Of a stretch of 42,954 nt of DNA, positions 13,721 to 33,293 are shown one piece after another. Positions within the stretch are counted from its first letter, which is position 1; each line of letters opens with the position of its first letter. This stretch comes from Sulfobacillus sp. (GTDB taxonomy: Bacteria; Bacillota; Sulfobacillia; Sulfobacillales; Sulfobacillaceae), in contig DAIDDL010000034.1 of assembly GCA_027309085.1 (NCBI GenBank), positions 1 through 42,954 on the forward strand. The letters run 5' to 3'. The translations under genes and the position numbers were made by a program. The notes below the pieces were generated by a model. The model had not been told where the DNA came from, searched no databases, and saw only the letters and a program-made list of their open reading frames with translations.

Positions 13721-14773
13721 TCACCAGTGCGGGCCGCGCCAGACCCACCGGGTTCCCGGGCGTAAATTCCAGCGCACGATGCGGTACTCGGCGTTTGTGC
13801 TCTGCAGGAGGTATAGAGAACCTGTGCTGCCCACGGTGCCGTACACCACGCTTTTCACCGGCACCGTGCGCACTTTCAGCGTCGTCGTCCGCCCGCTTGG
13901 GGTCACCATCACCACCAGGGAATGTCCCGGCACGTTTAGATTGATCCCCATGTAAATCCAGCCCAAACGGTTAATCCCGAGGAACTCGCTGTGCACAATG
14001 GGCTCAGGGGACAGCACCGGCATCTTTCGCAGCAGGCGGTCCTTGCGGCTATACACCAGCACTTCCCGCTGATAGCGGTCGCCGCTGGCCGCTTCAACGT
14101 AGAGCCAGCCGTGCGGTCCCGCCTCAAAAGAGCGTACGACCGCACTGATAGGGTAGGCGGCATCCACCTGAAGCGGACTGTCCCACTGGCTCCGGGCCAT
14201 ATTGATCACTCCCAGCAGCCTGCCCTGGGCGTTATACTTGGCCACCCACATTTCCGACTGTCCCCGGCCCAGCCGCACCCCCTCCAGCAGGAGATTGCGG
14301 CCATCCGCCGCCAAGTGCCATATCGCCTCGGTCTGCCCGGGCGGCACTGTCAGCTGGATGATCTTGGAGACGCGCCCCCCGAGAAGGCGGTACACCGCCA
14401 GCTGCTGATTATCCACAAAATAGAGCCCCCGGCTGGCATAGACCAGATCTTCGATGACAGCATCCGGCACCGCCACCGTGCGCCAAGTCTTGCCCGTTTC
14501 CACAATGCGGTGCTGATATGAGTCCGCAATCCAGAACCGGTGTTCCGCGTGCGCGAACGCCAGAGGCCCATACCGCTGCCCGTCCAGGCCTTTGGCGATT
14601 CCCACGTCCTGCGGCCTAGATCCAAAAGGGGCGCTCCAGACCAGAGCCGGGTTGGGGTCGAGATGCCAAAATTGCACCCGGTGCACTCCCCTGCCCGCCG
14701 CCAGCGCCATCAGAATCCCCAGTACCGCTATCCCCAGTCCCGCTTTTTGCCTGCGGGATAGTTTTTTTGCCAC
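13721..14773 (-). CDS. Membrane-anchored or secreted beta-propeller-like protein, function unknown
   Basis: 350 residues. A basic start (MAKKLSRRQKAG) and one hydrophobic helix (LGIAVLGILMALAAG, about 13-27) indicate an N-terminal anchor or signal sequence. The rest is beta-rich and lacks cysteines, with recurring short strands and motifs such as GPLAFAHAEHRFWIADSYQHRIVE, typical of NHL/six-bladed propellers. No catalytic motif is seen. It is upstream of the amidohydrolase on the same strand with a gap of 115 bases. Family and function are not recognised; the fold is an inference. Confidence 0.6.
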   Translation of the reverse strand: MAKKLSRRQKAGLGIAVLGILMALAAGRGVHRVQFWHLDPNPALVWSAPFGSRPQDVGIAKGLDGQRYGPLAFAHAEHRFWIADSYQHRIVETGKTWRTVAVPDAVIEDLVYASRGLYFVDNQQLAVYRLLGGRVSKIIQLTVPPGQTEAIWHLAADGRNLLLEGVRLGRGQSEMWVAKYNAQGRLLGVINMARSQWDSPLQVDAAYPISAVVRSFEAGPHGWLYVEAASGDRYQREVLVYSRKDRLLRKMPVLSPEPIVHSEFLGINRLGWIYMGINLNVPGHSLVVMVTPSGRTTTLKVRTVPVKSVVYGTVGSTGSLYLLQSTNAEYRIVRWNLRPGTRWVWRGPHW

Positions 14774-14813
14774 GCGCCGTCCCCTCCTCCTTCACGCTAT
14801 GCGCGAAGGCGCC

Positions 14814-14825
14814 GGGACATGTCCC
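14814..14825. promoter_or_regulatory. 12-bp perfect palindrome, candidate operator
   Basis: GGGACATGTCCC, 41 bases upstream of the propeller-protein start; the half GGGACATG recurs about 50 bases further at 14862-14869. Regulator unknown. Confidence 0.35.
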
Positions 14826-14895
14826 TCTTTGGGATAGCCCCTGCCCGTGTGCTGGGCAAGGTGGGACATGGGCAAGGCATGTGGCCTTTGTTTTT

Positions 14896-15049
14896 CATGC
14901 ATCCCCAGATCAGTCAGGCAGCAGGGAAACGCACCGCACTTCTCGCGAATTTCCGAAGAATTACCGCCCGTTCGGAGCGCTGTAGCCACCAGTTTTAACT
15001 CGATGTCCTCCATTGGAAGGGTCCCACCTGACTTATCTGGGGATGCATG
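14896..15049. mobile_element. MITE-like element, 154 bp
   Basis: Terminal inverted repeats of 23 bases with one mismatch: left 14896-14918 begins CATGCATCCCCAGAT, right 15027-15049 is its complement. The element is flanked directly by the 8-base direct repeat TTGTTTTT (14888-14895 and 15050-15057), the pattern of a target-site duplication. Inside, on the minus strand, ATG 15013 with GGAGG-free leader opens a frame MEDIELKLVATALRTGG that runs through the left repeat; it may be the start of a transposase left after internal deletion. The CATG ends and an 8-base or longer duplication fit IS4/IS231-type elements best, but family assignment is tentative. Confidence 0.75.
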
Positions 15050-15077
15050 TTGTTTTTTGCCCCAGCACCGTTAAAAT
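15050..15077 (+). promoter_or_regulatory. Candidate promoter of the diguanylate cyclase gene
   Basis: TTGTTT (15050-15055), 16-base spacer, TAAAAT (15072-15077). The -35 box coincides with the right-hand direct repeat of the MITE-like element. Confidence 0.4.
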
Positions 15078-15085
15078 AAGGGAAA

Positions 15086-15139
15086 CAGGCACGGGGAGGG
15101 CTGCTGCGGCAGCCCGGAATTTTTGTGCATTTTTGCCTG
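15086..15139 (+). promoter_or_regulatory. Structured leader with terminator-like hairpin
   Basis: Outer stem CAGGCA (15086-15091)/TGCCTG (15134-15139) encloses a strong hairpin GGGCTGC-TGCG-GCAGCCC (15098-15115) followed by GGAATTTTT. It lies in the 5' leader of the diguanylate cyclase gene and could be an attenuator. It does not match the c-di-GMP riboswitch cores I know. Confidence 0.4.
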
Positions 15140-15203
15140 AAGGTTCGTTAAAAGAGGAGAAGCGCTTACGCGTTACCGACGACATGTTCCCGGCGCCAAG
15201 CCG

Positions 15204-16490
15204 GTGCCTGCCCTGCCAAGCCCTGAAGGGCAGCCGCAGTGGGAAGATTTTTTCAATCTGCTGACAGACCATATGCTGGTCGGCGTAGACCTGCATACGG
15301 AAAGGTTTCTCTACACCAACGGGGCCTTGCAGAAAATGCTGGGTTATTCCGCTGAGGAATTGCAGTCGCTCTATGTGTGGGATGTCCTGTCTGAACCGTA
15401 CAAATCCATGATCCAGTCTTCTGTGGCAGCGGGGCTCCACAACCCGGGGCACGTCACCGCGACGCTCATCAGGGCGGTGAGGAAAAACCATGAGCCCCTG
15501 TGGCTCCAGGCTTACGCGGCGTCTGTGAGCTATCACGGTCAGACTGTGCGCATTGCCAATTATATTGACGTCACGGAGACCATAACCCTCAAAGAGCAGA
15601 TGGACCAGGAGGCCGCCGCCTTTTACCAGGCGCTTGACGCCATCCCCACTCCAGTCGTCATCACCCGGGAAAACTTTCTCTATGTCAATCCGGCGGCGGT
15701 CGCGTGGTATGGCTATGAGCGGGAGGAATTCTACCGGATGAATGTCTGGGACGTTCTCGACGTCCCGGACGACCTGCTGCACCGCATCCAGATTAATATC
15801 CGCCGGCGGCTTGCCGGGGAATCCTTCGCGGAAGAGTACCCGCCTCTGCGGATCAAGGTGCGCAGCCTGCAGCCCGCATGGGCCCTTATCTCGTCCCGCA
15901 CCTTGTGGCACAACGGTCAGTGGGTCATTCTGGTGGTGGCCTCCGACGTGACGAACACCGTCTTGAAAGAGCAGAATATGCGCCAGGAAAAAGAGCTCTA
16001 CCGCGCCTTGTCCGAAGTCGACAGCCTGACCGGCATTTACAACCGCCGCATGTTCGACCACCGCCTGGCGGCCGCCTTGAAGGCCAGGGCGGCCAGCCAG
16101 GCGTCCTCATGGATGCTGATCATGTTTGACCTCGACAATTTCAAACAGCTGAACGATGCCTTGGGCCACCACACGGGCGACCGGGTGCTGCAAGAGGTCG
16201 TCCGCGTCGTCCGCGCAAACCTGCGCGGCAGCGATTTTTTTGCCCGCTACGGGGGCGAGGAATTTATGATTATCTTGCCCAACACGTCCATGGAGGCGGC
16301 CTGGCAGCTGGCGGAGCGGCTGCGCTCCGCCACTGGGCAGCATGATTTCCACACCGGAGTCCCTGTCACCATCAGTCTGGGAATGACTCCCTGCCAGCCC
16401 CATGATACCCCCGCAGATACGGTCCACCGGGCCGATGCTGCGCTGTACCGGGCCAAAAGTCTGGGGAAAAACCGCGTGGAAACCGATTGA
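15204..16490 (+). CDS. PAS-PAS-GGDEF diguanylate cyclase
   Basis: Makes c-di-GMP from two GTP. 428 residues, cytoplasmic, no membrane segment. PAS domain 1 about residues 12-128, PAS domain 2 about 135-255 (FYQALDAIPTPVVITRENFLYVNP), GGDEF domain about 270-428 (DSLTGIYNRRMFDHRL, FDLDNFKQLND, ARYGGEEF). An RxxD inhibitory site (RGSD) stands five residues before GGEEF, so product feedback is expected. The first usable start is GTG 15204, which has no clear ribosome binding site. The frame stays open upstream to 15141, and a strong AGAGGAGA (15152-15159) sits there without a standard start codon in frame. Confidence 0.92.
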   Translation: MPALPSPEGQPQWEDFFNLLTDHMLVGVDLHTERFLYTNGALQKMLGYSAEELQSLYVWDVLSEPYKSMIQSSVAAGLHNPGHVTATLIRAVRKNHEPLWLQAYAASVSYHGQTVRIANYIDVTETITLKEQMDQEAAAFYQALDAIPTPVVITRENFLYVNPAAVAWYGYEREEFYRMNVWDVLDVPDDLLHRIQINIRRRLAGESFAEEYPPLRIKVRSLQPAWALISSRTLWHNGQWVILVVASDVTNTVLKEQNMRQEKELYRALSEVDSLTGIYNRRMFDHRLAAALKARAASQASSWMLIMFDLDNFKQLNDALGHHTGDRVLQEVVRVVRANLRGSDFFARYGGEEFMIILPNTSMEAAWQLAERLRSATGQHDFHTGVPVTISLGMTPCQPHDTPADTVHRADAALYRAKSLGKNRVETD

Positions 16491-32387: not shown

Positions 32388-33293
32388 CTATTTTATAGAG
32401 GAGTTCGAAACGGCGCTCAGCTGGTCCACCAGAGAACGCAGGTAGGCCGTCACATCATCTCTCAGGTCGTCCCGGTCCAATGCCGCCTCAATCGTCGCCT
32501 TGATGAATCCCAGCTTCTCCCCCACGTCAAACCGCTTGCCCTCATAGGCGACGGCGATTAGCCGGCCTTGGCGCGCTATCACGTCGAGTGCGTCGGTGAG
32601 CTGAATCTCTCCTCCGGCTCCGGGTTTGATGCCTTCCAGCACCGCAAAGATGCCGGGGTCGAGAACATAGCGTCCCATAATCGCCAGAGGGTTTTCCGGC
32701 GCCTTGTCAAACGGCGGCTTTTCCACCAGGTGGGAAACATGAAACGCGCGCCCGTCCACCGCCCACTTGCCATAGACAATGCCGTAGCGGCTGGCCTCTT
32801 CGCGCGCTACCGGCTGCACTGCCACGACAGACAAACCGGGCTTCCAGTGGTCAATCAACTGCTTGAGAACCGGGGGGTGGCCCTGCATGACGTCGTCACC
32901 CAGCAAGACAGCAAACGGCTCGTGACCCACGTGGCGGCGGGCGGAGAGGACCGCGTGCCCCAGGCCCAGCGGCTCTTTTTGTCGAATAAAATGCAGGTCT
33001 GCGAGACGGGAGACATTCATCACCACTTCCAGCAAATCGGTCTTGCCGCGGCTCCGCAAATATTGCTCAAGCTCGGGAGTTCTGTCAAAATGATCTTCAA
33101 TACTGCCTTTATCTCGTCCGATCACCACCAGCATATCATCAATGCCGGACGCCACGGCCTCTTCCACAATATATTGAATCGTAGGCTTGTCGATTAGCGA
33201 AAGCATTTCTTTCGGCTGTGCTTTGGTGGCCGGGAGAAACCGGGTCCCTAAACCCGCGGCGGGAATCACTGCCTTTTTTACATTCTCGTTCAT
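32388..33293 (-). CDS. galU: UTP-glucose-1-phosphate uridylyltransferase
   Basis: Makes UDP-glucose for cell envelope and exopolysaccharide synthesis. 301 residues, normal. Motifs: AVIPAAGLGTRFLPATKAQPKEML with the nucleotide-binding loop and catalytic lysine, PTIQYIVEEAVASGID, FIRQKEPLGLGHAVLSA, VLLGDDVMQG, VSHLVEKPPFDKAP and GEIQLTDALD. Ribosome binding site AGGAAAGG. It lies downstream of a mannose-1-phosphate guanylyltransferase gene, spaced 64 bases, suggesting a nucleotide-sugar unit. Confidence 0.95.
   Translation of the reverse strand: MNENVKKAVIPAAGLGTRFLPATKAQPKEMLSLIDKPTIQYIVEEAVASGIDDMLVVIGRDKGSIEDHFDRTPELEQYLRSRGKTDLLEVVMNVSRLADLHFIRQKEPLGLGHAVLSARRHVGHEPFAVLLGDDVMQGHPPVLKQLIDHWKPGLSVVAVQPVAREEASRYGIVYGKWAVDGRAFHVSHLVEKPPFDKAPENPLAIMGRYVLDPGIFAVLEGIKPGAGGEIQLTDALDVIARQGRLIAVAYEGKRFDVGEKLGFIKATIEAALDRDDLRDDVTAYLRSLVDQLSAVSNSSIK

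Follow-up and report, generated by a model that had tools for sequence, protein, structure and literature searches.

What is the short, inverted-repeat sequence that separates a probable diguanylate cyclase gene from its divergent neighbor in Sulfobacillus sp., and did its arrival give that gene its promoter? The locus lies on contig DAIDDL010000034.1 of assembly GCA_027309085.1 (4.49 Mb, 172 contigs), from which we analyzed a stretch of 42,954 bases, referred to here as the window. The original prediction described a MITE-like element with 23-bp terminal inverted repeats that differ at one position and an abutting 8-bp duplication, a description that proved exact in the sequence and is backed by other copies and by an empty site, both detailed below. 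The element is 154 bp long (14896-15049, plus strand), with its left repeat, CATGCATCCCCAGATCAGTCAGG, at 14896-14918 on the plus strand and its right repeat, CATGCATCCCCAGATAAGTCAGG when read on the minus strand, at 15027-15049. The repeats match at 22 of 23 positions (96% complementary), and a perfect 8-bp duplication, TTGTTTTT (8/8), touches the element directly at both ends, with its left copy at 14888-14895 and its right copy at 15050-15057 (neither assigned to a strand). These arms are the sole pair of 23-mers in the window with at most one mismatch and a spacing of 50 to 1000 bases, and simulation of 30 windows with matched dinucleotide composition produced no comparable pair. Short, bounded by terminal inverted repeats and without a transposase frame, the element has the form of a non-autonomous miniature inverted-repeat transposable element (MITE).

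The original prediction named no family for the element, and the proposed search for a parent insertion sequence (IS) now makes the MITE assignment specific, since IS1595-type elements with the same ends are present, broken in the element's own genome and intact in relatives. In the own genome, a 1201-bp IS (C77:27813-29013) carries the element's ends with TTTCCGTT on both flanks, and encodes Zn_ribbon_IS1595 and part of DDE_Tnp_IS1595 in two broken pieces. An intact 1167-bp IS from a relative (L203) has the same ends, CTTGGAAA on both flanks, and a roughly 300-codon transposase frame that scores 169.7 bits against NF033547 (IS1595 family; cut-off 75) and contains both Pfam domains (84.7 bits for PF12762, DDE_Tnp_IS1595). 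The N-terminal zinc ribbon, PF12760, which is a trait of all IS1595 groups but IS1016, is found in both C77 and L203. The same ends also bound an intact 1387-bp IS among the relatives (L227), where TAAAAATT stands on both flanks, such that C77, L203 and L227 all display the 8-bp target duplication of the IS1595 family. The element's right end is the counterpart of the partner's left end, the one where the transposase starts, with 38 of 45 bases identical (E 7e-10), a likeness that reaches well past the shared 23-base repeat; at the other end of the element 24 of 45 bases agree. Given the shared ends and duplication length, mobilization of the element by an IS1595-family transposase is very probable.

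Two results count against parts of this explanation. No IS that we found convincingly matches the element's middle (the top hit, to L069, has 62% identity and E 0.002), so that descent by simple internal deletion would be no more than a possibility. The assembly of the own genome contains no intact IS1595-type transposase, as the partner copies on C77, C11 and C92 are broken or truncated and those on C118 and C82 run to contig ends, and any present-day mobility would be hypothetical. Contigs can end where an assembler meets repeated sequence, and contig ends were observed inside partner-IS copies in L074 (C11:1-378), L073 (C82:79065-79136) and L065 (C118:27484-28095). With three contigs ending in this way, an intact copy may have been collapsed or be missing from the assembly. 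We also observed an extended -10 pattern, TGCTATAAT / TGTTATAAT, in front of the transposase at the partner's left end (L059:1014-1080; reverse strand of L074:1-378), and TAAAAT occurs nearby on the corresponding strand in most MITE copies.

The search for other copies proposed with the original prediction succeeded both in the own genome and in six relatives of the same family. At least six essentially full-length copies are present in the own genome, plus fragments; a DNA search of the 4.49 Mb recovered further copies at 99, 97, 96, 88, 85 and 75% identity as well as several fragments, and the repeat pattern, allowing three mismatches, occurs at 33 sites compared with 0 for the reversed control. 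Among 61 genomes searched, the element or long parts of it were found in G005 and G007 (same genus), G013 and G021 (another genus, with many copies), and G030 and G032 (same family); the remaining matches cover just the ends or shorter stretches, and outside the family no genome matched the element. Plasmids and viral contigs yielded no relative of the element and no exact end. When 22 nearly full-length copies (143-155 bp) were compared, they aligned throughout, with the ends most conserved (mean identity 93%, against 79% in the middle). Perfect 8-base duplications flank eight element copies, and each has a different sequence: three are in the own genome (C44:12310, C92:31094 and the window) and five in relatives (C420, C209 and C256 of G021; C59 and C117 of G013), with several other copies duplicated at 7 of 8 positions. 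The element thus shows the constant-length target duplication and the multiple copies at unrelated sites that define a MITE. Across 11 perfect duplications the A/T content is 77%, compared with 39% for the window. Counting against the MITE reading, a matching duplication is absent at some copies, namely two on C99 and one on C82. In one C99 region (L004, C99:32588-33066), a MITE copy at 32914-33066 directly adjoins a partner-IS fragment at 32588-32913 without a matching duplication, an arrangement that probably arose by nested insertion followed by rearrangement.

The same copies bear on three other readings of the element. A reading as a functional RNA or regulatory hairpin, conserved for its structure rather than transposable, is very unlikely. 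Its transcript does fold unusually well (-60.1 compared with -42.1 kcal/mol for shuffles, z -4.9), but the excess is due to the inverted repeats, since for the interior alone 34 of 50 column shuffles of the 22 copies folded as well or better; in addition, Rfam returned no match, and the copies sit at different sites with differing duplicated 8-mers. Still less credible is the idea that the element encodes a small protein from a 73-codon minus-strand frame that starts inside it, a frame that is open in the window copy (14792-15013, minus strand) but depends on one extra base present in three copies only. Most copies read ATG GAG GAC ATA GAG TAA or similar at that position, and the frame extends into flanking DNA. 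As for a chance inverted repeat beside a chance T-rich direct repeat, the duplication is of low complexity, as this reading would have it, yet the simulated windows, which held no such pair, and the numerous other copies and ends across the genome, set against none for the control, refute the idea and leave its probability practically nil. Nor does anything indicate that the element carries cargo or is selected for a role other than moving itself.

We conclude with high confidence that the window element is a MITE that arose from an IS1595-family insertion sequence or co-adapted with one. Elements of this kind are already known; what is new here is an IS1595-type MITE family in Sulfobacillus-like bacteria, for which one insertion event is well supported, and our literature search found no paper that names MITEs together with Sulfobacillus. 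A passage of PMC8101967, citing Siguier et al. 2009, lists the groups of the IS1595 family as IS1595, ISPna2, ISH4, IS1016, ISSod11, ISNwi1 and ISNha5. The window element shares with this family the 8-bp duplications and, through its partner, a transposase with an N-terminal zinc ribbon and a DDE_Tnp_IS1595 domain, while it differs in having no transposase of its own; its ends start CATGCATCC, and the partner is placed at the family level. MITEAba12 of Acinetobacter (PMC6382973) is likewise short (113 bp) and non-autonomous, has ends that match a co-resident IS, prefers A/T-rich targets and can sit beside host genes. In contrast to the window element, it has 16-bp ends beginning GGCTTTGTTG, 9-bp duplications and ISAba12 as its partner, its identity to the IS is confined to the ends where ours extends further, and transcripts from an outward promoter were seen, whereas none is predicted here. 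MITEPye1 of Paracoccus yeei (PMC11578231) is also non-autonomous, with terminal inverted repeats, direct repeats and a long stem at the RNA level, but is associated with IS1182-family elements.

The element stands between two divergent genes. Downstream, at 15204-16490 on the plus strand, is the gene that had been called a c-di-GMP synthase, and its product has the domains PAS-PAS-GGDEF, in keeping with a probable diguanylate cyclase. Upstream, at 13721-14773 on the minus strand, is a conserved gene for a 350-aa product, which has no Pfam or NCBIfam match. Both neighbors are found in the same arrangement in Sulfobacillus thermotolerans Kr1 (L109), where the orthologous site is empty, thereby providing the uninserted locus with which comparison had been proposed. 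After removing the element and one duplication from the window sequence, we aligned the flanks, and the intergenic sequence CCTTTGTTTTTTTGCTGCAACATCGTTACACTAGGAGAAA of S. thermotolerans then pairs with CCTTTGTTTTTTGCCCCAGCACCGTTAAAATAAGGGAAA of the window; this empty site supports the target-site duplication, with the caveat that the GGDEF proteins are 72% identical and the comparison is with a different species rather than a sister strain. The insertion therefore took place on the window's lineage, barring the less likely case of a precise loss from S. thermotolerans.

The empty site also speaks to the promoter. As originally described, the right duplication supplies a TTGTTT -35-like hexamer that lies 16 bases from TAAAAT, a -10-like hexamer at 15072-15077 (plus strand), and it was proposed from this that the insertion created or changed the promoter of the GGDEF gene. 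In S. thermotolerans, however, the uninterrupted site is CCTTTGTTTTTTTGCTGCAACATCGTTACACT, with the same TTGTTT and, 17 bases on, a -10-like TACACT at the position aligned with TAAAAT. A -35-like and a -10-like hexamer thus stand in the same place without the insertion, and neither derives from the element, which contradicts creation; a strict scan also found no outward promoter within the element. The possibility of change is narrower but stands, since the sequence upstream of the -35-like hexamer, along with any activator or UP-element site in it, has been pushed 162 bp away and the element's end now takes its place. A regulatory mutation in which the insertion created or markedly changed this promoter, with an effect on c-di-GMP, is therefore unlikely. 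It was the -35-like hexamer that the insertion hit, and target duplication restored this hexamer on the side of the gene, such that the predicted core promoter was probably kept rather than created, and the most likely effect on the gene at the core promoter would be near-neutral. The promoter itself is a prediction, as a strict sigma-70 scan did not call the TTGTTT-16-TAAAAT pair.

We propose that a transposase of the IS1595 family worked in trans on both 23-bp ends, and that a staggered 8-base cut would have placed the element in an A/T-rich 8-mer of the divergent intergenic region that contained the -35-like hexamer. Gap fill-in would then have rebuilt the hexamer beside an unchanged -10 region, probably keeping the core GGDEF promoter while moving all upstream sequence 162 bp off. 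More speculatively, and as something of a long shot, the IS1595-type elements of this lineage might favor A/T-rich 8-mers such as -35 regions, where the duplication rebuilds the hexamer and an insertion could settle in a promoter without destroying it; such a "self-healing" insertion would be tolerated and might gradually rewire the regulation upstream, in this case of a c-di-GMP enzyme. With this analysis, Sulfobacillus-type acidophiles gain a MITE family together with its IS1595-type partners. The locus is also a clear case where comparison with an empty orthologous site points to a promoter kept by target duplication although it had looked newly created, and a caution against reading promoters off insertion boundaries.

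Two features of the cyclase gene's leader were observed alongside. The GGDEF reading frame continues without a stop upstream of the GTG listed as its start (15141-15204), where AGAGGAGAAG and ACGCGTTACCGA(A/C)GACAT are conserved with S. thermotolerans, and no in-frame ATG, GTG or TTG lies near this stretch in the window, which suggests that translation starts upstream of 15204, perhaps at a non-standard codon such as ACG. A strong, terminator-like hairpin of seven pairs followed by a T run (15098-15115 and beyond, plus strand) sits between the predicted promoter and the gene. The S. thermotolerans leader differs in sequence and could also pair (CCAAAGC...GCTTTGG) ahead of a T-rich stretch, and the hairpin and T run of the window are possibly an attenuator.
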